NCBI GenBank assembly: GCA_021527695.1
Contig: JAKFAO010000011.1
Span: forward strand, 868,001 to 932,000
Direction: 5' to 3'
Length of the DNA stretch: 64,000 bases
Origin: Naematelia aurantialba
Lineage: Eukaryota > Basidiomycota > Tremellomycetes > Tremellales > Naemateliaceae
The notes below the pieces were generated by a model, which saw only the letters and a list, made by a program, of their open reading frames with translations, was not told where the DNA came from and did no database searches. Positions 3,205 through 28,824 of the stretch are shown here, in pieces (position 1 is the stretch's first letter; each line of letters begins with the position of its first letter). A program made the position numbers and the translations under genes.

Positions 3205-5374
3205 ATGAATATCGAGGAGTGAGTACTGTCTAATCCTTCCTCCCTGCAGCACGTTGAGCGAGTGCAACGCAGATTCCGAAAAGCAGGTGGGAGCTTTTCC
3301 ACGTCTTACCTGCCGACACTTGTTCAGGGTACGCGACGGTTGATGCCATCTGCAAATACTACGCTACTATTAATGATCGGCCTGTAAAGGCTGAGGTACA
3401 ACCTGGCTTCCTGATCGAAAGTCTCCCTTGTCAGTTTTCATACCCGCCCAGAAATCGTTCTACCACTCAGGATCTCAGCGTCGGCACCAACGCGAGGAGA
3501 ATCGATGGAGCATATCCTTGCTGATTTTCAGTCTCTCATTTTACCCGGTACGGCCAACCATGGATCACGCGGTTTGGCTAACCTCCGCTAGGTATAACGC
3601 ACTGGCAACATGGCAAGTTTTTCGCCTACTTTCCGGCCAACTCGACTTTCGAGAGCATGCTAGCAGACCTCTTGGCAACTTCAGTTAGCAACCCTGGATT
3701 TAATGTGATTGTTCATGTTAACGCGAAGATTGTGAGAGCGCTAATTAACCTGCTAGTGGGTCTGCTCTCCGGCATGTACCGAGTTAGAGCAGTGTGTTAT
3801 GGATTGGACCGCGAGGATGCTCGGACTGAATGACATATTCTTGACGAGCTCGAAGCAAGGAGGTGGTATCATCATGGTCTGAGTGCTTGGTCCTCCGTTT
3901 GCGGCGATGCCTGATAGCGCAGAACTCCGCTTCGGAAAGTGCACTGACTGCGGCAATGGCCGCAAGAGAAAGGTCATTACGCCACTTGTCGCGGAGGATG
4001 CAGACTACGGTAGCTGGCTCCGTTCCGGGATCGGATATTCCCATGGAGTGTAGACTGCAGTTCGGTCAGAAGCTGGTCATGTACGGCAGTACCCAGACTC
4101 ATAGTCTTGGTGCCAAGGTTATTCCTCAATTCTAAGTGGTACCGGCTGTTGACGTTTCTCAGGCGGCAAAGCTTCTCGGACTGCAATTCCGGGCGGTAGC
4201 TGTCTCTGCCGCCGATCATTACGCGCTTCGTGGCACCGCTCTGAAAGAAACGATGGAAGCCGATGTTGCACAGGGCTTGATTCCCTTCTTCGTCAGTGAG
4301 TTATTTCACTGCTGGTGATTATGGTCAGATAATGGAATCGAATAGTCGCTACCATTGGGACCACGTCATCCGGAGCTGTAGACCATATTGATGAGATTGG
4401 AGAGGTCCGTAAGTTCACGTCGTCGTAGTGGTCTTTCACTCACGCTGTTGAGTTCGCGCTTATCCTACGACGTTCCTCCATGTTGATGCGGCGGTGAGCA
4501 CAGCGGAACTAATCATCTCTGAATGAATCTCACTCTACACACAGTGGGCGGGGGTGGCATTAGCGCTGCCCGACCAGAGAGAGAATCTGCGACTCGGTCA
4601 GGTTAACCAGTACGCTGATTCGTTCTGTACGAATGCCCATAAATGGGGTCTCACGGCATTCGACTGCTGTATGTGTGAGAATTGAACATACGATATTCGC
4701 AGCTCATGATATTTAAGCTTTGTGCTACATACGTGATCGCAAAGATTTCACCGACGCGTTCGATGTGACACCCGTACGTGGTTCGCCGCTATCAACTAGG
4801 ATTAATCTTGTGCAGCACTTTCTCCGTTCCAAAGAAGGTGACTCGGGAACGGTGATTGATTACCGCAATTGGCAGATTGCGCTGGGGAGGAGATTCCGAA
4901 GTTTGAAGCTTTGGTTTGTTCTTCGCAGCTACGGCACAGATGGCTTCAAGAAGCACCTTGCAGGCGTCAGTCCATCTACCGCCGAAAATAGTCCGCCAGA
5001 CGTGCTAATCCACCCAGGGTATTGAGCTGTGCGCCAAGCTTGAGACTCTCATCCAAAGCTCTGTCAATTTCCAGGTGGTCACTCCGCGGAGCCTGGCTCT
5101 TTTAGTCATCCGCCTACATCCGCAGGTGGGAAGTCCTCTCGCTGACGAAGAGCTCAATTTACTCAATCAACGGCTATCGGGTGTGTTGAACGGGCGATCC
5201 GACGTATTCTTGACCGAAACAATGCTGCATTCAAATGAGAGTGACATCCTCTGCCTTCGTCTTGCTTTTGGTGGTACCCGGACCACATGGCGGGATGTTG
5301 TCGAGGTCTGGCAGGTGATCGAGGCGGAAGGAGACCGGATTATATCCACTTGGAGGGACGAAAGAAGAGTATAA
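3205..5374 (+). CDS. PLP-dependent group II decarboxylase, aromatic-L-amino-acid decarboxylase type
   Basis: Likely decarboxylates an aromatic amino acid (tyrosine, DOPA or tryptophan) with pyridoxal phosphate. The spliced protein starts [20 protein letters not shown] and shows family landmarks in order: [46 protein letters not shown], the PLP-binding aspartate in FLHVDAAWAG, and the Schiff-base lysine in [14 protein letters not shown]. It ends near [10 protein letters not shown]. Many short introns are resolved by conservation; the first exon is only 14 nt before a GTGAGT donor. The substrate cannot be read from the sequence: tyrosine, DOPA and tryptophan decarboxylases share these motifs. 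It lies about 220 bp downstream of transketolase on the same strand, with no sign of a metabolic cluster. Confidence 0.88.
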
Positions 5375-16251: not shown

Positions 16252-16665
16252 TGTCACGATGCTCCGGTCTAACTTCGGCGACCTGGGACCGCTGCACAAC
16301 GACTGGCTTGGAAATGGACGAGTTCCGCGCGAACTCGTTGAGAGAATGAGGAAAGCCTTGACTTGGGACTGGGACGTGGAGTTGGGGGGGACGTGGACTG
16401 AGACCTGGGCGATCTAGAAGAACTCAGATGAGTGGTTGTAGACCCGTCGAAGTTAGAGCGAGATCGTTGGGTCTTGGACTATGGGACTCAATCGAGGATC
16501 GCTGAGGAACCTCACTACAATCCGGTAAATTCTATATACTCTCGTCGAGACGAGTAGATACTCGCTCAACCTAGACGAGTTCCTCAAGCCCCACGTGACA
16601 GCCATGCCGCCATCCCGGTCGCGTGGATAGTCACGTGACGACTCGACGACGTCTCCGTCATGACA
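16252..16665 (-). repeat. 3' LTR of the outer element
   Basis: 414 bp, starting TGTCATGACGG on the minus strand and matching 28406-28819. A guanine-rich stretch (GGTGGGCAGAG on the minus strand) just inside it can serve as polypurine tract. It includes the copy of the self-priming site at 16491-16504. Confidence 0.93.
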
Positions 16666-16907
16666 CTCTGCCCACCATTATGGTCGAGCTCCTGCGAGAC
16701 TAGACCATTCCTCCCGTATGCCCCACCATGCACCATGGCGGCAAGCTGTCAGTGGCACTGCCATCGCTGTCGCCGTCGCCATGCTTGCCACGCTCGACTA
16801 ATCCCGAGAGTCGCCGTAGCGTAGATGGCACGGTAACCTGGCGACAGCACAGACCATAAAGGACTCGGCGAGAACGAAACCACTCACCGTAGAACTCCCC
16901 ATCTCTC

Positions 16908-16916
16908 TTCTTTCTT

Positions 16917-16973
<57 letters not shown>
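16908..16973. repeat. (CT)n microsatellite in the outer element
   Basis: About 65 bp of near-pure CT/TC, upstream of the plus-strand open frame at 17051. Pyrimidine-rich tracts are common in fungal promoters and leaders, so it may belong to that antisense gene. Confidence 0.85.
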
Positions 16974-16977
<4 letters not shown>

Positions 16978-17050
16978 CTCGTTCTCTACCACGTCAAATT
17001 GTAAGGTAAGACTCACTGACACTTAGGTACCATCGACGAAATCTCCAAGG

Positions 17051-17316
17051 ATGCCCGCGACTCGACGAGATGCGTCCCGCCGTGCCAGTACGCAAACTCG
17101 CTTTGCTGGTCGGTTCGTCCACGCGCACAACATTGCTGTGGTTCCCTACGGCGGCCCACGCCCCGTCGAGGTTGTGGTGGTGGAGGATTCGGATGATGAG
17201 ATCGAGGAAATTGGGGCCCTAGGTGAGTACTCGACGAGGACTCACTAACTCGACCAGTTCCAGCATTTTACTCACTCCCGGGTGGCCAGCCAGGCTTGAC
17301 TCATGGCGAGACTTGA
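17051..17316 (+). CDS. Antisense open frame in the outer element, spliced remnant
   Basis: Runs opposite to gag-pol. ATG 17051 opens MPATRRDASRRASTQTRFAG, then a valine-rich, acidic part (VVVVEDSDDEIEEIG). At 17223 a GTGAGT donor follows CCCTAG. A 35-nt intron with a consensus CTAAC branch site and GACCAG acceptor ends at 17257. Splicing adds about 19 codons and stops at 17316, giving about 76 residues. The second exon overlaps the end of pol on the other strand, so the original 3' part may have been lost with integrase. Function unknown. It sits where the inner element has its longer antisense gene, also next to a CCTAG..GTGAGTAC sequence. Confidence 0.4.
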
Positions 17317-20300
17317 GTATCTTCAACCGCAAGTCTTTATGGTTGGGAATGTATAACCTTCCCCCCACCCGGAGCAAACCTCGCCCCGACTGCTCGACCT
17401 TGGTACCATCTGGCATCCCAAGTCGACGACAGAATCCGGTGAGTCGACGAGTTCCTTCGGTACTCGACGAATCCTCCTCTGACTCGACAACCTCTGTACT
17501 CAACTCGACTCTCACCTGCTCCAACTCGGGATCCTCATCTACTCCTTCGGCCATATCCTCGATGGATATCAAACCGCCGTCGTCGTCTCCAAGGGAATCC
17601 GCTTCGTGAGTCTCGTCGATGCCCTCGCCATCAACAACGTCCTCGTTGTTCCCATCATCATCAACCACTGTCAACGCTCTAATCATATGGGACAAGGACG
17701 TTGTAACGGTAGAGAATTCGTTGAGACTCGGGAGGGCTTGGACGAGAGTCTCCTCCTGCTCGGCGAGTGGTCCAGGTTGGTAGTCGGGTCGTCGAGAGAG
17801 AGCATCTGGGTAGGTAGCATGTACCCCTGGACGATAGACAATATTGTAGTCGAATCCCGACAGTAGATCCACCCACCTGGCCTGCCTAGGATTAAGCTGC
17901 CTCGGCTCCATCCAATATGTCAAGTTCAAATGATCCGTGATCACAGTCGACTTGACCTGCATGAGCAGATGGCGCTTTCGACGAAAGGCCATCACGATCG
18001 CCAAGAACTCTTTCTCGGTCACTGTATAGTTAAGCTCAGACCCTTGAAACGCACCAGACTCGATTGCCACTGGATGCTCATGCCCCGTTTCCGAGTTGAT
18101 CTGCGAAATTACGAACCCCCATCCGTATAGGGATGCATCCGCCTGAACGATCGTCTCAAACTCGGGACTGAAGTGGGCGAGTACCGGTGCGGTCGTCATG
18201 AGTCGTTTGATATCGTCGAATGCTGCCTGCTGTCCCTTTTCCCAGACGAATGGGACGTCCTTGCCTGTCAACTTATGGAGGGGTCCCGCGATCTTGGCAA
18301 AATGAGGGACGAATCGACGATAATAGCTTGCCATCCCCAGGAATCGTCGAACCTGCCGAACCGTTCGAGGTGCCGGGAAGTCGACTATGCCTTGAACATA
18401 CTCGGAATTCGCTCCCACCCCGTTATTAGACACCACGAAGCCCAAGAATGTCACGCTCTCCTTTTCAAATTCGCACTTGCTGGCTTTCAGGAAGAGCGAC
18501 GTCTTTCTAACAATGTCGAATACTCGTCGAGTGAGATCACGTAACTCGTCGAGTGTCGACGCGTGGATAAGGATATCGTCGATATATATCGTAACTCCTC
18601 GCCCGATAAGATCTCGGAAGACTTCGTTGAGGAAATGTTGGAATACCGCAGGAGCATTCTTGAGACCGTCCCGCACCACCAGTGACTCAAACATTCCCAA
18701 TTGAGTCCTGAACGCTGTAAGATGTTCATTCCCCGGTGCCACCCTCAAGAGTTGGTACGCCCCCACCAAGTCTAACTTGGTGAAATACTTGGATTGGCCC
18801 AATTCGTTGATGATTTGGCTAATCAATGGCAATGGATACGCATCCGGGACGGTTGCCTGATTGAGTCGACGAAAATCGACGACCATTCGACTTCGTCCAT
18901 CTTTCTTGGGGACAAAGAAGGTCGGCGATCCATATGGCGAGTTGCTTGGCCTAATTCGTCCAGCAGCCAATTCCCTCTCAATGGTTGATCTCAAAACCTC
19001 CACCTGAGACGGGTTCAGCTCGTACAATGGCGCCAGACGAAGCTTAGCCTCAGGTTTCAGCGAGAACTTCAAGTCATACTCCCTATGAGGTGGCAAGGTC
19101 TCGGTTCCCCATCTAGGATGGAATATATCAAGGTAACCTTGGTATGTCACGGGAACTTGACTTGTGATCTCGTCTAATTCCTCGGGAGTCAACTCGAGTT
19201 CACCGAAGCTCGGCAACGTCTCTACTCCGACGAAGGATTGGTCGAATTCTGGCGACTCGTCGACTGCACACAGTCGCTCGACGCTTTCCTCTCGATTTCC
19301 TGTAGGAGCGTCACGAGATATCCAACGACTAGGTTGTCTCACCGGTATGCTGTTAGGAAACCTGAGGACTCCTCCAGGAATCCTGACATCCGGGGTCATT
19401 CCCTCCCTGAACCTGACCTTGGACCTTAAACGATTCGACGACTTGGACTTGAACGCGCTCTTGAGCTCGACGACTCCCTTGATGGAACCGAGCGACTCCT
19501 CGCGTCCCCTGAGCATGGGGGCTGGCTTGGAACTTGACTTGGGACTGGACGTGGACGTGGGCTTGGACATGGAATTGGACGAATCCAATGCTGGGACTGT
19601 GGCGATGGGGGCCTTAGCCTCGGGCATGGGCAAGGGCATGGATTTGCTCGGGGACGATGGTATTTTGACGACTATTGGTTCGTCACTCGACGAAAGCATT
19701 CTCGATCGTCGAGTCGAAACCAATCGTTCACCGAAGTCGAGAGTTACTCCGTGCTCTTTGAGCCAGGAGTAACCGAGAACAATGTCCGCCCCTGATAGGC
19801 GAGTAACATCGAATCTTTCAACCCTGGTCGATCCCACTACTGTGAGCGGGGCCTCGACGTACCACTTGATTGGTCCCGCTTTGCTTGGCTCCCCGTCAAA
19901 CAAGGTTAGTCGACGAGGTTTGGTATGTGGGTATTTGTCGAATCCCTCGGAGTCGACGAAACCCTCGTCGATGAAGTTACCACTAGCTCCGGAATCAAGG
20001 AGTATCGTGGCCAACGAATCGGACTCGCCTAGTTGCCCAGCAACGACAGCCTGGTCTTTGGAGAGTCTAAAAGGCTCACCACAATTCAAAGATATATTTC
20101 GTTTGTCGATGATCGACGAATGGGTATCTTGACTCGACGAATGTACAGTTTTTGTCGAGTCGATGTCTACAAGTGAGTCCGAACTATCCATAGTACAAGC
20201 TAAGGAGGTAGCAGAGAGCACTAAATTGGCGGGATATGTAGTCTCTGCGGCAAGCATATCCCTCAATCTTTTGGCTCCTCCTTGGTGCCCGGTCCGGGGA

Positions 20301-20392
20301 CAGGAGAAGGTCTGCTGGGAGTGGGCGGGAGTGGACGAGATCCCATCCTCGTAAGGGGACAGTTTGGGAGGAAATGCCCCGATTGTCCACAC
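17219..20392 (-). CDS. Outer element pol, truncated (protease, reverse transcriptase, RNase H)
   Basis: Open frame of about 1057 codons, overlapping the end of gag in the -1 frame. The aspartic protease motif LLDSGASGNF is near residue 131. Reverse transcriptase blocks include RMVVDFRRLNQATVPDAYPL and the catalytic IYIDDILIH near residue 600. RNase H begins IVQADASLYGWGF near 760. The frame ends shortly after the integrase zinc-finger start (SRHESSLAGHPGVSKMLELV) with about ten unrelated residues and a stop, so the integrase core is absent. The usual MPFGLTNAP block reads VVRDGLKNAP here. The frame itself is open, which suggests a deletion derivative rather than an old decayed copy. Confidence 0.88.
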   Translation of the reverse strand: MWTIGAFPPKLSPYEDGISSTPAHSQQTFSCPRTGHQGGAKRLRDMLAAETTYPANLVLSATSLACTMDSSDSLVDIDSTKTVHSSSQDTHSSIIDKRNISLNCGEPFRLSKDQAVVAGQLGESDSLATILLDSGASGNFIDEGFVDSEGFDKYPHTKPRRLTLFDGEPSKAGPIKWYVEAPLTVVGSTRVERFDVTRLSGADIVLGYSWLKEHGVTLDFGERLVSTRRSRMLSSSDEPIVVKIPSSPSKSMPLPMPEAKAPIATVPALDSSNSMSKPTSTSSPKSSSKPAPMLRGREESLGSIKGVVELKSAFKSKSSNRLRSKVRFREGMTPDVRIPGGVLRFPNSIPVRQPSRWISRDAPTGNREESVERLCAVDESPEFDQSFVGVETLPSFGELELTPEELDEITSQVPVTYQGYLDIFHPRWGTETLPPHREYDLKFSLKPEAKLRLAPLYELNPSQVEVLRSTIERELAAGRIRPSNSPYGSPTFFVPKKDGRSRMVVDFRRLNQATVPDAYPLPLISQIINELGQSKYFTKLDLVGAYQLLRVAPGNEHLTAFRTQLGMFESLVVRDGLKNAPAVFQHFLNEVFRDLIGRGVTIYIDDILIHASTLDELRDLTRRVFDIVRKTSLFLKASKCEFEKESVTFLGFVVSNNGVGANSEYVQGIVDFPAPRTVRQVRRFLGMASYYRRFVPHFAKIAGPLHKLTGKDVPFVWEKGQQAAFDDIKRLMTTAPVLAHFSPEFETIVQADASLYGWGFVISQINSETGHEHPVAIESGAFQGSELNYTVTEKEFLAIVMAFRRKRHLLMQVKSTVITDHLNLTYWMEPRQLNPRQARWVDLLSGFDYNIVYRPGVHATYPDALSRRPDYQPGPLAEQEETLVQALPSLNEFSTVTTSLSHMIRALTVVDDDGNNEDVVDGEGIDETHEADSLGDDDGGLISIEDMAEGVDEDPELEQVRVELSTEVVESEEDSSSTEGTRRLTGFCRRLGMPDGTKVEQSGRGLLRVGGRLYIPNHKDLRLKILKSRHESSLAGHPGVSKMLELVELVSPRRVLT

Positions 20393-20854
20393 CTGTAACA
20401 GGCGTTTTCTACTCGCCGCCTCTCTCTCTCTCTCTCGGGGAGAGATCCCCGAGGCACAGGCCCCAAAGAACTCGACGAGTTCTCAACCGGTGGGCGAGGT
20501 CCTTGAAGCTCTCGCCCAAGGTTGGAAGGGGTGGCCGAAGAAGAAGAGGGAGTAGGCGGGAGGAAGGGCTTAGTCAATGGGGCCCTTCCCGCCTCCGGCC
20601 TGCGCGCCGACTCGGCCTTTCTCTCCTGGTCCCGGACACGGAGACGATTGTCGAGAGGGACCACGAATCGGATTAACTCGTCGAAACTCTCAAACTCTCG
20701 GCCATGTCGAGCCAGTTCGTCTTTCATAGTTGACGAGAGACCATCTATAGCCTTGTCAACTATAGGTTCCTGGTCTCTCCAACCCAGGACTGCAATCAGC
20801 TCTCTCATTCGAGCGAAGTACTCAGAGGCAGTTCCCGTCTGTCTCAACTCCTTG
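20263..20854 (-). pseudogene. Outer element gag, C-terminal part after the inner insertion
   Basis: Continues gag from the other side of the inner element: ELRQTGTASEYFARMRELI, an arginine-rich segment, then a CCHC zinc knuckle (CYRCGQSGHFLPNC) and a proline-rich tail ending EEPKD. The stop is at 20263. Pol overlaps in the -1 frame. The last codons read CCA AAA GAT TGA, a possible slippage position one codon before the stop. The upstream part is at 27719-28355; the CCTTG duplication is shared. Confidence 0.85.
20850..20854. repeat. Target site duplication of the inner element (left copy)
   Basis: CCTTG directly before TGTCACGAACC, repeated at 27719-27723. It lies inside the outer gag reading frame. 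Confidence 0.93.
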
Positions 20855-21402
20855 TGTCACGAACCTGTCCCAAGTAGTGATGGCTTGAGACAGGATGGAC
20901 CGCAAAGGTTTACTAAGCTTGGCCTACGTCTGACGGGTGTAGACCGTGAAGCTTGTGTATTGGTTGGACAGCAAGCGGTGGCCAGCCTGGTTGACGAGGT
21001 AGCGTCGACCAGGAGTGCGAGATGAGTGTGAGAAGAATGTGAGGAAAGAACGTGAGGGAAGAACGTGAGGGAAGAACGTGAGGAAAGAATGTGAGGAAAG
21101 AATGTGAGGAAAGAATGTGAGGAAAGAATGTGAGGGAAGAACGTGAGGGAAGAACGTGAGGGAAGAATGCGAGGGAAGAACGTGAGATAAATAAAAGACT
21201 GGAGAACTACAAACTACAAAATGCACATCCTTTTATACCTCTGGCATCGTGGCTCTTCCACGCTCATTGTGGCTCTTCCACGCGTGGTTCAACCACGATA
21301 AGTACTTCCACGATAAGACTTTCCACTATTTGCTACTATGAGCTTTTCCACGATGGGTCAAACCACGACGTGGGTCATGACAATTCGGACCGGGTCATGA
21401 CA
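20855..21402 (-). repeat. 3' LTR of the inner element, with 13-bp minisatellite
   Basis: 548 bp matching 27171-27718. Positions about 21026-21186 are a tandem array of about a dozen 13-bp units of the type GTGAGGAAAGAAT/C. A second part has repeated TTCCACG motifs (21241-21350). The self-priming complement lies at 21187-21200, and TATAAAAGG (minus strand) about 35 nt before it. Confidence 0.95.
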
Positions 21403-21457: not shown

Positions 21458-21630
21458 TTGTCGTGGTCTGTTGTGTGGAAGCCGGGCGTTTTCCTGTGTT
21501 TTGTCGTGCTCCTCCGTGCCAAAGCCGGGCTACCTGTCTGATTGTCGTGGGACTCTCCGTATGGAAACCGGGCTACTTGTCCGAGCCTCGTGGATAATCC
21601 ACTATTGTAGCCGGGCTACTATCGTCCCTG
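21458..21630. repeat. Four-unit 43-bp tandem repeat between the antisense gene and the 3' LTR
   Basis: The core AAGCCGGGC/AAACCGGGC/TAGCCGGGC starts at 21479, 21522, 21565 and 21608, exactly 43 bases apart each time. Each is preceded by a degenerate TCGTGG-like stretch and most are followed by TACTTGTC-like sequence. The block lies upstream of the plus-strand gene and downstream of pol, a position that could hold a promoter or RNA signal. Confidence 0.8.
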
Positions 21631-21752: not shown

Positions 21753-22406
21753 ATGTCTACTTTCACTCAGACCACCCTCGACTTTGAGGCACTTGTCGGT
21801 GACATTCCGGTGATGACGCCCGACATTAATGTGGTATCGCTTGACAGTGAGGCGGATGCCGCCGATAGTACTGTATCCACGGGTGTTCCTGGTATCGATT
21901 GCCCTGACCTATTCGACTTTGCGACCGATGTCGGGCTCATGTCGCCCTACTATTCGCCGATTTCGCCCACTACGGCAACTGTCTCTGTTGCGGGTGACAA
22001 TGGGTCGATTGACGGTGATTGTCCCAATGTTGTCACTGATAATTCTGACAATGACACCGTCTACCGGTTCGATGTCGATGCCTATGATGTTCAGGACACA
22101 GTATCCCACCAGGAGTCGCCTGCTTTTCAGGCGGAAAGCGCTGTCCCTGTCCAAGGAACGCCGAACTCGGAAGTCTTGGCGGCGGAAACGGCCGCAAATA
22201 CGGCCGCCAATGCCACTCGAGCCAATGGAGATCTGACACAATTCTTGGCTACCATGCACCAAGCCAGCGTATTGGCAGCGAATGCGGTCGCGCATTTGGT
22301 CGAGAACGCCGACAAGATCTCCAAACGCACCCTCCTAGAGGTGAGTACGCCCAACATTCCAGAGGAAAGCGCTGTCCAGGCAGCCAAGGAATCTTTTGAC
22401 TTGTAA
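21753..22406 (+). CDS. Antisense gene of the inner element, 217 residues, unknown function
   Basis: Runs opposite to gag-pol. ATG 21753 opens MSTFTQTTLDFEALVGDIP. The protein is acidic and rich in Asp, Ser, Val and Thr in its first 150 residues. It ends in an alanine-rich, probably helical part (ETAANTAANATRANGDL, then VLAANAVAHLVENADKIS). No membrane segment, signal peptide or known domain is visible. The stop at 22406 is 19 bp from the pol stop at 22426, so the two genes are tail to tail. A GTGAGTAC sequence near 22342 could be a donor for an optional 39-nt in-frame intron. Extra antisense genes in this position are known in some plant LTR elements. Whether this one is expressed cannot be told from sequence. 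Confidence 0.62.
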   Translation: MSTFTQTTLDFEALVGDIPVMTPDINVVSLDSEADAADSTVSTGVPGIDCPDLFDFATDVGLMSPYYSPISPTTATVSVAGDNGSIDGDCPNVVTDNSDNDTVYRFDVDAYDVQDTVSHQESPAFQAESAVPVQGTPNSEVLAAETAANTAANATRANGDLTQFLATMHQASVLAANAVAHLVENADKISKRTLLEVSTPNIPEESAVQAAKESFDL

Positions 22407-22425: not shown

Positions 22426-25400
22426 CTACTTGTCTGTGATGCCATGTCGTTGGTGGAAGTCGTTGAGTAGGTCGATGGAGTGCACTAAGTCCTCTGCACT
22501 CTGCCAAGTAGTCTCGTTGTATCCGAGCCATTTAACAAGGTAGCGTCTTGGTGAAGCATAACGCTTGTCAAGTTTTGTGTCGAGTATCGCTTCGACTTCG
22601 TATTCCTCTTCTCCTTCTATTTCGATTGGTGGTGGAGGAGGTTGAATACGAGATGGTATTTTGTTATCGACATATGGTTCCAAGAGTTGTACATGGAATA
22701 CATTATGTATTCGCATGTTTGCTGGTAACTCCAGGCGGTACGCATGTGTGGATAATTTTGCTGAGATCTTGAAGGGTCCTAAGAACCGGTGATCCAGTTT
22801 CTTTGCAGGACGTGTTGTCTTGATGAATTGAGATGACAACCATACTTTATCGCCAACATTGTACTGTGGGATGTTGCTTCGTTTACGGTTAAAGTGTGTC
22901 GCAGCTGTTTCGTTTGCCTTTTCGAGTTCGGTTCGAAGGAAGCTATGGAGCTCCTCTAATTTTGCAGAGTATGCCACTGCAGTAGGCGCAATAACACTCG
23001 AGTCGGCTGGCGTAAAGTCTGCACGTGGATTATACCCTTTGTTGGCAAAGAAGGGTGACACGGTTGTCGACGAGTGTGGTGTATTATTATACGCAAACTC
23101 TGCCAAGGGTAACAAATCGGCCCAATCTTGCTGATGGTATGCCGTGTATAGTCGCAAGTACTGTTCCAATACTTGATTGACGCGCTCAGTCTGTCCATCT
23201 GTCTCGGGATGGAAAGCGGTACTGAGGTGAGACTCCATTCGGAGGAGTTGGGTGAATGCCCGCCAGAATCGAGAGGTAAATTCCGACTCGCGGTCGGAGA
23301 CAATGCTTGTCGGGATTCCGTGTTTAGCAAATACGTGATGTACGTATAATTTTGCAAGCTCCTCAGAAGTCAGATCGGTTGTTGTAGGGATGAAGATTGC
23401 CATTTTGGTTAACCGATCGACAATGACCAGAATGGAATTGAATTTAGAAGAGGCAGGTAGCCACTCTATCAAATCCATCGAAATCGAGGTCCATGGGTAA
23501 GGTGGAACAGGCAAAGACTTGAGAGCACCGTATGGGAGGTGTCGTCGAGTCTTGGTACGGCAGCAAAGGTCGCAACTATCCACGTAGTGATTGATGTAAG
23601 CCTTCATTGAGGGCCACCAATAATTTCGTTGGATCAATTGCAATGTTTTGCGTCGTCCAGGATGTCCTGCTGTAAGGGCATCATGTCGGGATTTCGTCAC
23701 CGATAATCGCAAATCGGGAGGCACATAATACTGCTGGTTATGTCGAAGTAGCTGTTGATCGTCGATCCAGAAGGGATGCTGATCCGAGGGAGTACCTGCT
23801 TTCTCCAGGTAGTCTGTCACTGTAGAGTCTCTCCTGAGACTGTCTCGAAAGGGTTCCAGTTGGGAAGAAATGTCCATTGAAGTACTGGCAACCGCTAAGT
23901 ACTGACCAGGCTTAAGGAGCTGCTGGTAGTTCTGCGGGTTTGACTCGATTGTCAAACTCGATCCACGTTGTAGAGGGTGATAATCCCTGCGTCGAGTAAG
24001 TGCGTCAGGCTTCGTTCCCTGCACGCCAGGTCGGTAATGTATACTGAAATGGAAGTCTGCCAAGAACTCCGACCATCTGGCTTGTCGTCGATTCAGTTGC
24101 TTGGATGTCGTAAAATACTCCAGGCTACGATGATCGGTATAAACCTTGATGGGGTGTTGGGCTCCTTCGAGGTAATGCCGCCACTCTTTGAAAGAGCTAA
24201 CGATGGCCAGCATTTCTTTGTCGTGGATCTCATAGTTGAGCTCGGCTGGTACCATCTTTCGAGACATGAAGGCAATCGGGAATAATTTTCCGTCCTCTTC
24301 ATGTGATAGGATACCTGCCAGCGCATAATCAGAAGCATCGGTTTCCAAAACCAGTTGCTTCTCTGGGTCGAAGTGGCGAAGTAAGTCAGCCGAAGTAAAA
24401 GCTTGTCGTAGCTGTCGACTAGCTTCTTGCTGTTGAGGGCCCCATTCATAGGGTACGTCCCTTTTGGTAAGCTTGACGATGGGTTGGACAATTGTCGAAT
24501 AGTCCTTGATGAAGCGTCGGTAGAAGTTACAGAATCCAAGGAAGGATCTAACTTCGTTCAAGTTGGTTGGCTCGGGCCAATCCAAAATCGTTTGAACCTT
24601 CTTGGTATCCATCGAAATCCCTTGATCACTTATCACAAAGCCGAGGAATTCTATACTGGTTTGGTGAAACTCGCACTTTTCTGCCTTCGCATAAAGGGCT
24701 GTTTCACGCAAACGCTGTAGAACTGCACGGACATGTCTGTGATGATCTTCGAGATTTTGACTGAACACTAAGATGTCGTCCAAGTAGCAAATGACATACT
24801 GATCCAGCATGTCGTGGAAGTTGTGGTTCATGAGGTGTTGAAATGAGGCAGGAGCATTAGTCAAGCCAAACGGCATGACTAAATACTCGTAGAGGCCATA
24901 CCGAGTGCGGAATGCCGTCTTCCACTCATCTCCCTTAGCAATGCGTAGAAGGTTGTATGCACCTCGTAGATCAATCTTTGTGAAGATCTTGGCACTGCAT
25001 AACCGGTCTAGCATTTCCGGGATTAGAGGGAGAGGGTAGCGATTCTTGATGGTGATTCGGTTGAGTCCTCGGTAGTCGACACAGAGGCGTAAGGAGCCAT
25101 CCTTCTTTTTCACAAAGAGGATGGGGGCTCCTGCAGGTGACTCCGAATGTATGATGAAACCTTTCTTGAGGTTCTCATCCAAGTATTCCTTTAATGTGCC
25201 AAGCTCCTTCTCCGAGAGAGAGTAAATTGGTCCCCAGGGTGGTGACTTGCCTTCTTCCAGGGGAATGGTGTGGTCAAATGGTCGATGCTTGGGAAGAGTG
25301 TCTGCCTTCTGTTTGCTGAAGACATCCAGGAAATCGTGATACTCCACTGGGACCATCTGTTTATCGCTGGAACTTGAACTTGTCACCGTCATCAATTGTG

Positions 25401-26010
25401 GTAGCGTTCCTGTTGCAGGTTGTTCCAGGTGGGTATGGCTGGGAGTAATGGTGCGCTGGGCCCAGCTAATGTGAGGGTTGTGCTCTCCGAGCCATGGCAT
25501 GCCTAATACGATGGGGTATGATGGCATGTTCATAACAAGGAAGCGTACCCAACTGGGCTGGAAAGGTTTTTCGAGTTCCAGATGGACCATTGCTTCGTGG
25601 TGAATGACAGAGCGTTGTCCAGCACCATTGATCAGAGAGATTGGGATCGGTCGAATTTTAACGAGCTTGATGTTTTGTTCTTGAGCAAAGCCTTTGTCTA
25701 AGAAATTGTTAGTAGCACCGCTATCAACAAGGGCTTCATAAGTTGGACTTGAGCCAGCAAGTCCGAACTTCAAAGTCAATTGTTGATGGGGAGTATGGTC
25801 TACTGAGAGGGGGTCCAACTGTTCAATACTAGAAACCAACTGCGTAGGAATCTGTGAGGAGGGACACTCCAACCCCAGATTCCTCTTGGGTAAAGGTTGG
25901 AGGTCTAGGCTTTTCCCGTCCCGGAATTGCCTACGTTTGTGTTCTTTGAAGTCGCCTGAGCCGATTGTGTGGACGAGACCCTCTGTCTTGCAGGTGGAGC
26001 TACTGGGCAT
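22426..26010 (-). CDS. Inner element pol (protease, RT, RNase H, integrase, chromodomain)
   Basis: About 1190 open codons. The protease motif ALVDSGATNNF is at residues 93-103. Reverse transcriptase has LCVDYRGLNRITIKNRYPLP and the catalytic YLDD near residue 408. RNase H starts LVLETDASDYALAG near 545. The integrase zinc-binding part is H-x-H..CDLCC near 770-820. The integrase core has the first Asp in WTSISMDLIEWLP, the second in IVSDRESEFTSRF, and the Glu in TDGQTERVNQ. A C-terminal chromodomain reads YEVEAILDTKLDKRYAS, then RRYLVKWLGYNETTWQ. The true N-terminal side joins gag by a -1 shift at GGGAAAA (25911-25917), so residues before that point are not necessarily made from this frame. 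Confidence 0.94.
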   Translation of the reverse strand: MPSSSTCKTEGLVHTIGSGDFKEHKRRQFRDGKSLDLQPLPKRNLGLECPSSQIPTQLVSSIEQLDPLSVDHTPHQQLTLKFGLAGSSPTYEALVDSGATNNFLDKGFAQEQNIKLVKIRPIPISLINGAGQRSVIHHEAMVHLELEKPFQPSWVRFLVMNMPSYPIVLGMPWLGEHNPHISWAQRTITPSHTHLEQPATGTLPQLMTVTSSSSSDKQMVPVEYHDFLDVFSKQKADTLPKHRPFDHTIPLEEGKSPPWGPIYSLSEKELGTLKEYLDENLKKGFIIHSESPAGAPILFVKKKDGSLRLCVDYRGLNRITIKNRYPLPLIPEMLDRLCSAKIFTKIDLRGAYNLLRIAKGDEWKTAFRTRYGLYEYLVMPFGLTNAPASFQHLMNHNFHDMLDQYVICYLDDILVFSQNLEDHHRHVRAVLQRLRETALYAKAEKCEFHQTSIEFLGFVISDQGISMDTKKVQTILDWPEPTNLNEVRSFLGFCNFYRRFIKDYSTIVQPIVKLTKRDVPYEWGPQQQEASRQLRQAFTSADLLRHFDPEKQLVLETDASDYALAGILSHEEDGKLFPIAFMSRKMVPAELNYEIHDKEMLAIVSSFKEWRHYLEGAQHPIKVYTDHRSLEYFTTSKQLNRRQARWSEFLADFHFSIHYRPGVQGTKPDALTRRRDYHPLQRGSSLTIESNPQNYQQLLKPGQYLAVASTSMDISSQLEPFRDSLRRDSTVTDYLEKAGTPSDQHPFWIDDQQLLRHNQQYYVPPDLRLSVTKSRHDALTAGHPGRRKTLQLIQRNYWWPSMKAYINHYVDSCDLCCRTKTRRHLPYGALKSLPVPPYPWTSISMDLIEWLPASSKFNSILVIVDRLTKMAIFIPTTTDLTSEELAKLYVHHVFAKHGIPTSIVSDRESEFTSRFWRAFTQLLRMESHLSTAFHPETDGQTERVNQVLEQYLRLYTAYHQQDWADLLPLAEFAYNNTPHSSTTVSPFFANKGYNPRADFTPADSSVIAPTAVAYSAKLEELHSFLRTELEKANETAATHFNRKRSNIPQYNVGDKVWLSSQFIKTTRPAKKLDHRFLGPFKISAKLSTHAYRLELPANMRIHNVFHVQLLEPYVDNKIPSRIQPPPPPIEIEGEEEYEVEAILDTKLDKRYASPRRYLVKWLGYNETTWQSAEDLVHSIDLLNDFHQRHGITDK

Positions 26011-27131
26011 TTTAGGACCACATGCCCTTTATCACCACAGTAAAGACAGAGGTTATTATCCTTGCGACGTTGATACTCGGCCGGGGTGAGTCTACCTCGT
26101 CGAGTTGTGGTAGAACTCGGCTGGAACGCAGCATGCAGGTTTGTCTGTGGCCTACTAATTGTCGAAGTAGGGCTCGACCTGGTGAAGGTGGTAGGACTGT
26201 GTGAGTAATCCTGTGTGGGGCGGTAGGTACTGAAAGGAGTGAAAGTACTTGTACCTCTGTCAGTCCGTTCGACTTGTCTTTCAAATAGACGAGTATCAAT
26301 GCGGACTGCAGCATCTTGTAGATCCTTGAGCTTCCGAGGTTTACCACTTCGTGAGAGCTCATCCTTGATAGGATCTTTAAGACCCCGGTAGAATTGTGCT
26401 GCCTTTGCTTCATCATTCCACTTGATGGGCACAGCATAACGCATGAATTCCGCAAGGTAGGCGGAAACAGAAGTGCGTTGTCGAAGGGCATACAGTTGTC
26501 GCTCCGCAGTGCCAACCTCATCTGGGTCGCCAAACGTGGTCCTCAGCTCATGACAGAAGCTTTCAAAGCTCTTCATGAAGTCTGGTTGAGGGGAAGCTAC
26601 CACGTAGGGCTGGAACCAGAGGAAGGCCACATCACGGAGGAAAGAACCCATGTAGAAGATCTTGGAAGTCTCGCTGGGGAAGCGAGTAGGCTGGAGGCTG
26701 ATGACCATCATTACTTGAGTAATGAATGTTGACAGTCTGTTGCGTTGACCATTGAAGAACTCGGGACTAGCAACCTTGGGTTCCGATGGTTTGCCAGTGG
26801 TAACCGATGATGCAATGGCTGCACTTGGGGCAAGAGACAAGCCTCGCTCCGGTCGAGGTGTTGTCTCCACTCCATGAGCCACAGCATCTTCGCCATTATG
26901 ACCAGTTGAAGGATCTTCCGGCCAGTCATGATGACGAACTTCTGCAAGAGCAGTATCAAGTTGTTGACGTAGTAACATGTTCTCTTGTTGAAGTTGTGTT
27001 TGTTGAGCAATGAGGGTTTGGAGGGATCCCTCCAGAGCCTGTAACCGGTTGTCGGTAGTCGTAGCCATCACAGATGGTGAGTTGAATGGCGAGGGGGGTT
27101 CCAAGATGGGTTCGGACCGCTTAGGGGGCAT
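25905..27131 (-). CDS. Inner element gag
   Basis: Starts at ATG 27131 (MPPKRSEPILEPPSP), followed by a coiled-coil-like stretch rich in Gln and Leu (LQALEGSLQTLIAQQTQLQQ). Next is a capsid-type region (FFNGQRNRLSTFITQVMMVI ... TTFGDPDEVGTAERQLY ... YAVPIKWNDEAKAAQFYRGL), a Ser/Thr-rich linker and one CCHC zinc knuckle (CLYCGDKGHVVLKC). The stop TAG is at 25905. The last sense codons are GGA AAA GCC, which create a slippery heptamer. The 5' leader between the LTR and this ATG is only 39 bases. Confidence 0.92.
   Translation of the reverse strand: MPPKRSEPILEPPSPFNSPSVMATTTDNRLQALEGSLQTLIAQQTQLQQENMLLRQQLDTALAEVRHHDWPEDPSTGHNGEDAVAHGVETTPRPERGLSLAPSAAIASSVTTGKPSEPKVASPEFFNGQRNRLSTFITQVMMVISLQPTRFPSETSKIFYMGSFLRDVAFLWFQPYVVASPQPDFMKSFESFCHELRTTFGDPDEVGTAERQLYALRQRTSVSAYLAEFMRYAVPIKWNDEAKAAQFYRGLKDPIKDELSRSGKPRKLKDLQDAAVRIDTRLFERQVERTDRGTSTFTPFSTYRPTQDYSHSPTTFTRSSPTSTISRPQTNLHAAFQPSSTTTRRGRLTPAEYQRRKDNNLCLYCGDKGHVVLKCPVAPPARQRVSSTQSAQATSKNTNVGNSGTGKA
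25911..25917 (-). promoter_or_regulatory. Putative -1 ribosomal frameshift site, inner gag-pol
   Basis: G GGA AAA in the gag frame fits the X XXY YYZ slippery consensus. It lies one codon before the gag stop. A -1 slip leads straight into the pol frame (…GKSLDLQPLP). No downstream structure was tested. Confidence 0.65.
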
Positions 27132-27154
27132 GGTGATAACCAATCACAAGCGGG

Positions 27155-27168
27155 AGTCTTTTATTTAT
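27155..27168 (-). promoter_or_regulatory. Self-complementary primer-binding site, inner element
   Basis: The minus strand reads ATAAATAAAAGACT, two bases (GT) inside the 5' LTR. It is the exact reverse complement of AGTCTTTTATTTAT in the LTR at 27503-27516. The LTR site begins about 37 nt after TATAAAAGG (27553-27545), where the RNA would start. No TGG of a tRNA-type primer site is seen. This matches the self-priming scheme known for Tf1-type elements, in which the first bases of the RNA fold back and prime. Confidence 0.85.
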
Positions 27169-27170
27169 AC

Positions 27171-27718
27171 TGTCACGAACCTGTCCCAAGTAGTGATGGC
27201 TTGAGACAGGATGGACCGCAAAGGTTTACTAAGCTTGGCCTACGTCTGACGGGTGTAGACCGTGAAGCTTGTGTATTGGTTGGACAGCAAGCGGTGGCCA
27301 GCCTGGTTGACGAGGTAGCGTCGACCAGGAGTGCGAGATGAGTGTGAGAAGAATGTGAGGAAAGAACGTGAGGGAAGAACGTGAGGGAAGAACGTGAGGA
27401 AAGAATGTGAGGAAAGAATGTGAGGAAAGAATGTGAGGAAAGAATGTGAGGGAAGAACGTGAGGGAAGAACGTGAGGGAAGAATGCGAGGGAAGAACGTG
27501 AGATAAATAAAAGACTGGAGAACTACAAACTACAAAATGCACATCCTTTTATACCTCTGGCATCGTGGCTCTTCCACGCTCATTGTGGCTCTTCCACGCG
27601 TGGTTCAACCACGATAAGTACTTCCACGATAAGACTTTCCACTATTTGCTACTATGAGCTTTTCCACGATGGGTCAAACCACGACGTGGGTCATGACAAT
27701 TCGGACCGGGTCATGACA
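27171..27718 (-). repeat. 5' LTR of the inner element
   Basis: 548 bp. On the minus strand it holds the promoter: TATAAAAGG at 27553-27545 and the inferred RNA start at about 27516. The 13-bp minisatellite (about 27342-27502) would fall in the transcribed leader. Confidence 0.95.
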
Positions 27719-27723
27719 CCTTG
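27719..27723. repeat. Target site duplication of the inner element (right copy)
   Basis: CCTTG directly after ...GGGTCATGACA; pairs with 20850-20854. Confidence 0.93.
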
Positions 27724-28355
27724 AGATTTCGACGAGCCGTACCCCTCTCGTCGGGGTCCCCGAAATTATCCTTAAGATACCTCACAAAGGCATCTCTCGA
27801 CGAAAGCTCGATAGCCGGGGGAACTGCTGTTGCCAATGGTCGAACGGCGTCGAGAGCTACACCTCGTAAGTAACTCATCATGAACGTCACCTTGATCTCC
27901 TCAGTGTAGTACCGAGAGGGCTGAAGCTTGAACACCAGATCACATTCCATAATGAACTGGTTGAGTTTCTCGGGAGCTCGACCATTGAAGGTATCGGGCT
28001 CTCGAGCTTTTGGTTCCTTGAAGTTTGACGAGGGACTCGACGAATCCCTGACGAATCGCTCGCGCTCCCACTGTTGGTGTTGCTGCTGTGTGGCTATGGC
28101 GCTCATATACGCCATCATTTGCTGTTGGAAAACAGCAGGGTCTATGACAGGCGGGACGAAAGGGGTGTGGGAGGCTCGCTCCGGGCTCTGTTGTGGGGAA
28201 GGATCTCGTCGAGACCCCTCTTGTCGCTCGTCGATCTGCTCACCGAAGTCGACGAACGAACCCGAACCCTCGGGGTCCTCTTGAACCCCAGAGTTCAATC
28301 GTCCCTGATCTCGCGCTGCTTGGCGAGTGACTCGTGAGGAAGGTGGAATGGACAT
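27724..28355 (-). pseudogene. Outer element gag, N-terminal part before the inner insertion
   Basis: ATG 28355 opens MSIPPSSRVTRQAARDQGRL. An acidic Ser/Pro-rich head and a Gln-rich helix (VFQQQMMAYMSAIATQQQHQ) follow. Then come capsid blocks EPDTFNGRAPEKLNQFIMEC and YLKDNFGDPDERGTARRNL, where the frame runs into the CCTTG duplication and the inner LTR. The other half of gag is at 20263-20854. With one copy of the duplication removed the frame is continuous, so this gag was intact before the inner insertion. Confidence 0.87.
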
Positions 28356-28389
28356 GGCGTTAACTTGGCTTGATGGTTGTGCGCGGTAA

Positions 28390-28403
28390 CAGCGATCCTC
28401 GAT
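28390..28403 (-). promoter_or_regulatory. Self-complementary primer-binding site, outer element
   Basis: The minus strand reads ATCGAGGATCGCTG, two bases (GT) from the 5' LTR. It is the exact reverse complement of CAGCGATCCTCGAT in the LTR (28645-28658). TATATAG lies 34 nt upstream (28692-28686). The layout is the same as in the inner element but with unrelated bases. Confidence 0.83.
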
Positions 28404-28405
28404 AC

Positions 28406-28819
28406 TGTCACGATGCTCCGGTCTAACTTCGGCGACCTGGGACCGCTGCACAACGACTGGCTTGGAAATGGACGAGTTCCGCGCGAACTCGTTGAGAGAA
28501 TGAGGAAAGCCTTGACTTGGGACTGGGACGTGGAGTTGGGGGGGACGTGGACTGAGACCTGGGCGATCTAGAAGAACTCAGATGAGTGGTTGTAGACCCG
28601 TCGAAGTTAGAGCGAGATCGTTGGGTCTTGGACTATGGGACTCAATCGAGGATCGCTGAGGAACCTCACTACAATCCGGTAAATTCTATATACTCTCGTC
28701 GAGACGAGTAGATACTCGCTCAACCTAGACGAGTTCCTCAAGCCCCACGTGACAGCCATGCCGCCATCCCGGTCGCGTGGATAGTCACGTGACGACTCGA
28801 CGACGTCTCCGTCATGACA
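28406..28819 (-). repeat. 5' LTR of the outer element
   Basis: 414 bp, matching 16252-16665 without a difference that I can see. It carries TATATAG at 28692-28686 and the inferred RNA start at about 28658 on the minus strand. Confidence 0.93.
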
Positions 28820-28824
28820 CAATT
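28820..28824. repeat. Target site duplication of the outer element (right copy)
   Basis: CAATT after ...CCGTCATGACA; pairs with 16247-16251. Confidence 0.93.

Follow-up and report, generated by a model that had tools for sequence, protein, structure and literature searches.

Antisense frames with a zinc-cluster-like motif in chromoviruses of Naematelia aurantialba and the probable origin of a 217-codon frame in one copy

Is a 217-codon open reading frame (ORF) that runs antisense to gag-pol in a long terminal repeat (LTR) retrotransposon of the fungus Naematelia aurantialba a gene in its own right? The frame lies in a stretch of 64,000 nucleotides (assembly GCA_021527695.1, contig JAKFAO010000011.1, positions 868,001 to 932,000 of the forward strand), hereafter the window, and the element that carries it belongs to a chromovirus family designated F1. 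The genome surveyed comprises 21.0 Mb in 15 contigs, and our analysis covers this one genome at the level of its sequence only. We propose that the chromoviruses here carry an antisense gene for a zinc-cluster regulator and that the window frame is a cluster-less derivative of this gene, a reading to which we assign a probability of roughly 0.6. The 217-codon frame is probably not a whole gene; its sequence suggests a first exon, a read-through donor site and a foreign tail.

The antisense frame and its sister copies

The frame (21753-22406, plus strand) has an ATG start and a TAA stop at 22404-22406, and lies between the pol stop and the 3' LTR with 19 bp separating its stop from that of pol, which confirms the position given by an earlier sequence-only reading of this DNA. 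The acidic first part and alanine-rich end described there are also present: residues 1-120 contain 22 Asp or Glu residues and a single Lys or Arg, and Ala accounts for 21 of the 97 residues from 121 to 217. The open run extends upstream beyond the ATG to 333 codons, inside the 1023-bp region between the 3' LTR and pol. This length was reached in 0 of 1000 dinucleotide shuffles of the region (longest 296), and the longest open run on the opposite strand is 141 codons. The low stop density is thus unlikely to be due to chance, as had been supposed, and we rate a chance origin of the frame as low. The predicted protein (P0001) matched no Pfam family up to E 1, and with two Cys in 217 residues it lacks the six-cysteine motif described below.

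A search with the pol end found four F1 loci, namely the window copy and those on contigs C5, C12 and C1, designated by their contigs. The fetched parts of C12 gag-pol and C1 pol are approximately 99% identical to the window. Neither was usable as an intact copy, C12 pol being broken by an LTR-like insert and the fetched part of C1 pol being its end only. The C12 insert (L050:7503-7969, TGTTACGACCC..GGTCATAACA) was judged by eye to be LTR-like and of another family. The stretch from pol to the 3' LTR varies greatly: it is longest in C5 (2197 bp; L048:1456-3652), followed by the window (1023 bp) and C12 (322 bp; L050:8703-9024), and that of C1 resembles C12 in the matched pieces. C5 and the window are 100% identical over 950 bp counted from the LTR side and divergent thereafter. 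The end of this identity and the beginning of identity with C12 overlap in a common CGCCC (Table 1), and the fusion at this pentamer keeps the reading frame into the C12-type tail.

The C5 copy reveals what the frame looks like on the other side of this junction. Its antisense gene, gene A, runs to the same ..TLLE, is followed by GTGAGT and a predicted intron of 44 nt that contains TGCTAAG as a branch-like site, and continues in phase into exon 2 (L048:2476-2670; QRRRRHFKFHLINLQGHPAPVPCHRC...CMIMAPNEKCARCVLHSQPC...GRK-stop), which encodes a six-cysteine Zn2Cys6-like cluster. In the window copy, the CAG nearest after GTGAGT comes after approximately 22 nt, which leaves no room for an intron. 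C5 has a second antisense gene, gene B, for which TATTTAAG was noted by eye and whose ATG lies at L048:1884, with a predicted 34-nt intron (GTGAGT..CTAG). The exon after this intron (L048:1521-1820; CDRCKKANKECLTKKIGQGCTYCRSVRNNC) spaces its cysteines exactly as Zn2Cys6 domains do, and it also encodes a basic patch and, at its end, a helical stretch (..AVQAVKESFDL). All exon joints were called by eye and reading phase. Because of the donor site and the junction, we do not read the 217-codon frame as an independent gene. The earlier proposal of an antisense accessory gene therefore stands in part: the coding region is unlikely to be a chance product and antisense counterparts occur in all four families grouped, but the frame itself is incomplete and the domain that hints at a function lies on an exon lost here.

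Telomere-like TAACCCCC runs were observed at the starts of C5 and C6 and inside the subtelomere (L048:1-90 and 4280-4310; L049:1970-2030 and 2955-2975), and F1 pol on C5 begins right behind such a repeat. The repeat at these contig starts is reminiscent of Cryptococcus-like Tremellomycetes.

The sequence-only reading had proposed that conservation of the frame among copies (a ratio of nonsynonymous to synonymous substitution rates, dN/dS, below 1) would identify a real gene. No constraint on the window frame was found among the F1 copies, a comparison with no statistical power. C5 is identical and hence uninformative on selection. An old fragment on C5 and C6 matches nucleotides 16-270 of the frame at 96% and, measured on C5, differs by 10 changes in 255 bp, six replacing and four silent. 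In C12 and C1, most of the frame has been lost, what C12 retains being 151 bp that match at 71% and the final 63 bp, which match at 97%. It is unlikely, in our view, that the 217-codon frame is a complete working accessory gene, acidic and helical and needing no zinc cluster (e.g., an integrase partner or a silencing suppressor). Such a gene would agree with a long frame, open from its ATG to its stop, in a copy whose LTRs are identical and whose gag-pol is open, and with a fusion that left the frame intact, whereas the canonical donor that is read through, the in-phase zinc-cluster exon behind this donor in the sister copy, the position of the junction where the C5 and C12 variants part, and the lack of a constraint signal all speak against it.

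Antisense genes in the other families and their cysteine cluster

The 32 pol-end matches in the genome were grouped by identity into F1, F2 (53%), F3 (46%) and F4 (approximately 45%), and the 3' regions of four F1, two F2, three F3 and five F4 copies were read. An antisense frame with the cluster is present in at least one copy read of every family (four of the four grouped). The F2 gene (L061) is a single exon of 194 amino acids from the ATG, with the cluster CESCRKASKPC-FKHEKWIR-CANCIEKSLRC, and its product has an acidic start, a basic patch and a helical end. The F3 gene (L062) has three exons encoding 302 amino acids, with predicted introns of 35 and 63 nt and CTAAC and CTAAT branch-like sites. 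The F4 gene (L063) has two exons encoding 322 amino acids, and its predicted 49-nt intron lies within the cluster loop, so that removal of the intron unites the cluster halves (CX2CX6C, long loop, CX2CX6C). The F4 intron and frame were recognised in four of the five fetched copies. Introns are thus predicted in the antisense genes F1-A, F1-B, F3 and F4, and none in F2.

A motif scan of the window and 17 further loci, with a pattern written after the cases had been seen, gave six sites, each in what we read as a retroelement 3' region, and none in the window. The motif appeared in none of 400 shuffles for each of the F1-C5, F2, F3 and F4 3' regions and in one of 400 for the window region; the observed count in F4 is also 0, because the intron splits the motif. 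Counts of intact frames, all of them lower bounds, are at least 13 of the 14 matches listed for F3 (uninterrupted, 274-276 codons) and at least two of the three listed for F2, the third (on C15) keeping residues 140-199 only. The 10 rows listed for F4 comprise at least six near-full stop-free matches, three pieces of a broken C14 copy, and a 48% relative, C15:69900, which is treated below. This third F2 copy (L060, C15:926500-930560) has most of its antisense gene deleted, with pol open for 1224 codons. Loss of the accessory gene has therefore happened in a second family, F2.

The F4 antisense gene is under constraint. Pairwise comparisons among four copies, which are non-independent, gave silent:replacing changes of 7:4, 6:2, 5:2, 10:4, 11:4 and 5:0, corresponding to dN/dS of 0.20, 0.12, 0.14, 0.14, 0.12 and 0 on 5 to 15 changes. 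The F3 pairs gave dN/dS of 0.47-0.71, but these values come from between 3 and 7 changes and carry little information. These data bear on the view that the antisense region acts as RNA, through double-stranded RNA or interference with gag-pol expression, the frames being incidental. For Ty1, inhibition by antisense RNA is reported, and an antisense restriction of Tf2 has been proposed (PMC7175516); for the antisense ORFs of plant elements, a role through double-stranded RNA is under discussion (PMC7264820; this and the other papers cited by number are drawn on from portions of their text), but the low F4 dN/dS (0-0.2), the joining of cluster halves by intron removal, and the six-cysteine pattern in seven versions (chosen for the pattern) make this view very improbable.

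The Zn2Cys6 domain of fungal regulators has the spacing CX2CX6CX5-12CX2CX6-8C. F2 and F1 gene B follow it strictly, and F1 gene A, F3, F4 and a copia-linked version described below deviate in one or two spacings. The six cysteines align across seven versions, which were chosen for these cysteines. The Pfam model PF00172 scored 9.5 to 12.6 bits in three versions against a cut-off of 21 and did not match the F3 or F4 pieces; no Pfam family scored over its cut-off in the antisense pieces. A genome search with DUF3716 gave two weak matches, neither over the cut-off, one being the C5 exon and the other (L070) lying in a region without a motif-scan site. A profile built from the seven cluster segments and searched against the PDB had LEU3 as its top match (E 5.3e-4). 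The modelled gene B domain has a predicted local distance difference test score (pLDDT) of approximately 85 over the cluster. In Foldseek, 25 of its 27 matches are DNA-binding domains of Leu3, Pho7, Gal4, Put3, Lac9, Hap1, Ppr1 or AlcR, and the remaining two are yeast kinetochore chains; its root-mean-square deviation from Leu3 is 1.4 over 35 residues. The F2 model is poor in the cluster region, with no Zn2Cys6 row among its best 50 fold matches. From these alignments and models, the cluster probably resembles the Zn2Cys6 family and works like it without formal membership, and the fuller copies likely encode a DNA-binding domain. The opinion of the sequence-only reading that nothing in the sequence tells the function can thus be revised for the fuller copies, which carry a Zn2Cys6-like cluster according to the alignment, the profile and the fold matches of the gene B model.

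A six-cysteine module that binds RNA or protein, such as a nucleocapsid-like helper or a nuclear import factor, would agree with the weak sequence similarity and with the comparable jobs of retroviral accessory proteins (PMC7264820). The best profile and fold matches are Zn2Cys6 DNA-binding domains, however, and a long helix follows the cluster in two of the products, as in Gal4-type dimers, and we consider a non-DNA ligand highly unlikely. Searches of a large protein set, which may not include related fungi, with P0001, the F2 protein and a three-row F4 alignment gave no homologue at E up to 10, 1 and 1, respectively. In viral contigs scanned with the pol end, 10 stretches fitted a pattern, and no relative was among them.

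Two further versions of the gene occur outside the antisense position. C15:69900 (L069:868-1882, minus strand, within C15:69000-71400) is an intact, intron-bearing relative of the F4 antisense gene. It is 48% identical over 315 codons (dN 0.47, dS 1.05), has the intron in the same place, and is nearly invariant from the cluster's second half through the next block. The upstream DNA holds the remains of an F4-like LTR (74% over 98 bp) together with a promoter stretch (76% over 62 bp). No pol similarity was found within the 2.4 kb fetched, nor nearby among the pol-end matches. C15:69900 could be a gene that was domesticated or else a remnant that has survived well. As the one single-copy relative that lacks gag-pol, it could be cited for the view that a host gene was captured by transduction and retained by chance. 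Its LTR remnant, however, indicates that C15:69900 was itself derived from an element; furthermore, the large divergence between families suggests an old association, and searches of the genome with the F2, F3 and F4 proteins revealed no closer relative outside elements except C15:69900. We accordingly give capture of a host gene very little credence.

The second version, a 166-codon cluster frame at C1:638070-638567 (L051:4071-4568), is a single open frame in the sense orientation behind a Ty1/copia RNase H end (identified by eye), with an identical copy at C15:917547 and two approximately 84% relatives on C7 and C12. It is the best relative of the F1 gene A cluster (22 bits in phmmer, equalled in 0 of 300 shuffles even with the cysteines fixed), in a comparison set of seven sequences, so that the E-values do not stand for a database search. 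Retrotransposition need not remove an intron from an antisense gene, since the genomic RNA carries the opposite strand of that gene; an intron in a sense gene would be lost. The antisense versions with introns and the intronless sense copia version fit this logic.

The host element, its neighbours and repeated motifs

Judging by its sequence, the window element is a young Tf1-like self-primed chromovirus on the minus strand, with identical LTRs, CCTTG on either side, gag-pol, a chromodomain and a 14-nt primer site (Table 1). The chromodomain at the integrase end (Chromo) scores 32.6 bits against a cut-off of 25.1, and the integrase core rve scores 30.7 bits, below its cut-off of 32.6. A TATA box (TATAAAAG) precedes the 14-nt LTR match by approximately 30 nt, an arrangement known from the self-primed Tf1 elements, and the match marks a putative transcript 5' end. 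The LTR contains a 13-bp minisatellite of approximately 12 copies (window 21032-21186), and many other LTR copies match only on its two sides. The F1 element is nested within an outer F3 element (window 16252-20854 and 27719-28820). The outer pol frame (window 17219-20392) ends in the integrase zinc-binding domain, and the integrase core and chromodomain were not found in this frame.

Table 1 Features of the window element and the outer element (window coordinates).
Feature	Position	Strand	Basis or remark
Exon 1 of antisense gene A, acidic then Ala-rich, codon-boundary end ..TLLE	21753..22340	+	100% to C5 L048:2715-3302
5' splice site GTGAGT, read through as codons in the window copy	22341..22346	+	Donor in C5
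Recombination/deletion junction, common CGCCC	22348..22352	+	C5 identity stops 22352, C12 identity starts 22348
Tail (NIPEESAVQAAKESFDL, stop), C12-type 3' region	22353..22406	+	2 differences/78 bp vs C12
Array with CCGGGC in four 10-mers (starts 21480, 21523, 21566, 21609)	21458..21620	+	Exactly 43-bp spacing, LTR-to-antisense-ATG interval
3' LTR	20855..21402	-	548 bp, identical to 5' LTR
5' LTR	27171..27718	-	548 bp, identical to 3' LTR
gag	25905..27143	-	Domain search
pol (protease, reverse transcriptase, RNase H, integrase, SH3, chromodomain)	22426..26010	-	Domain search
Self-primer binding site ATAAATAAAAGACT	27155..27168	-	14 nt complementary to LTR
Outer element (F3) antisense exon 1, cut short	17051..17222	+	F3 match
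Outer element first antisense intron GTGAGT..CTAAC..CAG	17223..17257	+	F3 match ends 17261

TCGACGA occurs 52 times in 7393 bp of F3. It reaches approximately 7 per kb, in coding and noncoding parts, both in L052:2796-9901 and in the outer element. The two parts of the outer element hold 31 in 4603 bp (window 16252-20854) and 8 in 1102 bp (27719-28820). The density is 0.79 per kb in F1, 1.2 in F4, 0.14-0.28 in the window flanks, and 0 to 0.71 in ten other loci. TCGACGA is the top 7-mer of F3 pol (L052), with 34 occurrences, where shuffling of synonymous codons gives 7.0 +- 2.3 (0 of 1000 shuffles reaching 34); along the element 15 are forward and 37 reverse, and in pol they fall in all codon phases. 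The F3 pile-up looks like an accumulation of putative binding sites. We also considered that each family has a motif of its own, as seemed the case against host frequency. After synonymous-codon shuffling F3 alone stands out, and no 7-mer does so in F1, F2 or F4 pol. Motifs picked post hoc show a weak excess: TTCGAA in F2 (11 vs 5.4; 1 of 500), GTACGG in F4 (8 vs 3.6; 9 of 500) and TCGACGA in F1 (4 vs 1.3). CCACGA occurs 12 times in 6316 bp of F1, a density of 1.9 per kb where the host part has 0.58, and the F1 pile-up is partly the 13-bp LTR minisatellite.

Possible role and relation to known systems

An acidic stretch, a cluster, a basic patch and a helix make up a layout of fungal transcription regulators. 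We propose that the antisense accessory gene in the interval between pol and the 3' LTR encodes a small regulator-like protein with an acidic stretch, a Zn2Cys6-like cluster and basic residues. This protein may act in trans by binding double-stranded element DNA, possibly at the LTR and the 3' arrays, and once bound it would keep the element transcribed or unsilenced. In the window copy, template switching at CGCCC from a C5-like to a C12-like template could have dropped the cluster exon together with gene B. The product, made up of exon 1, the read-through donor and a borrowed tail, would be acidic and devoid of the DNA-binding part. Such cluster-less copies could spread if fuller copies supply the factor, and the stump would be either inert or a competitor of the full factor.

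A more far-reaching version of this proposal, which we regard as doubtful, is that spliced antisense Gal4-type proteins recognise motif arrays of their own family, F3 via TCGACGA and F1 via the LTR repeats and the 43-bp CCGGGC array. They would then give LTR retrotransposons a system of self-recognition or anti-silencing that is convergent with the VANC proteins of plant VANDAL elements and in which C15:69900 would be domesticated and the stump a natural competitor.

Zhao et al. (2011) reportedly described an antisense gene, brtn, in Boty-like elements of the fungus Botrytis cinerea. Boty is stated to have an antisense ORF (PMC7264820), the gag-pol of Boty-like elements is described with a CHROMO domain (PMC4227169), and in one Boty-like consensus, P26.1, the start of brtn is missing (PMC8365987). 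The sequence-only reading, which knew of no well-described fungal case, had thus overlooked the Boty-like elements. They share with the elements here a fungal chromodomain Ty3 element and an antisense extra gene, and differ in the ascomycete host; neither a zinc cluster nor introns are mentioned for brtn in the parts of these papers available, and the comparison is by description only. An 'add. ORF' in some fungal Ty3 elements is alike in being an extra ORF, again by text description only (PMC2864245).

Among plant elements, the TRP28 ORFs of Retand are likewise antisense, present in nearly all clusters and predicted to bind DNA, with a proposed regulatory role, but they belong to a non-chromovirus lineage with a TRP28 domain, and the accessible text mentions no introns (PMC11963269). 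Gene23 of maize Grande is also an antisense accessory gene, with its own promoter and a nuclear protein, but in a plant element and with no clear similarity to other proteins as far as the available text goes (PMC7264820). The anti-silencing VANC proteins of the Arabidopsis VANDAL elements target a pile-up of short motifs (PMC5735166). The likeness is in idea only, in that an element-coded factor would recognise a motif pile-up of its own family such as F3 shows; VANDAL is not an LTR retrotransposon, and VANC21 motifs are described as mainly noncoding (PMC5735166), whereas the F3 motifs also occur in pol. Bdelloid retroelements of different classes have extra ORFs in common, a likeness across classes that the Ty3 and copia elements here may share (PMC5408684).

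The Gal4-type regulators Leu3, Pho7, Gal4, Put3 and Hap1 have the same six-cysteine cluster with two short helices and a following helix. They are host genes, whereas the versions here are element-borne, antisense and below Pfam cut-offs, several with changed spacings. Searches of the open-licence literature, judged by titles and the openings of abstracts, brought up no paper on zinc-cluster genes antisense to retrotransposons. Antisense accessory genes as such are already known from plants and from brtn of Boty. Apparently new are the likely DNA-binding domain, its occurrence in four families, the introns, the sense version on the copia side, and the intact copy without gag-pol.

The plant papers, in the portions available, call the function of the antisense genes of LTR retrotransposons unknown (PMC7264820, PMC11963269). 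A well-understood DNA-binding fold, together with natural copies with or without the domain in a small fungal genome, would make the question of function directly testable. If our reading is true, a characteristic fungal DNA-binding domain would be tied to retrotransposon biology.
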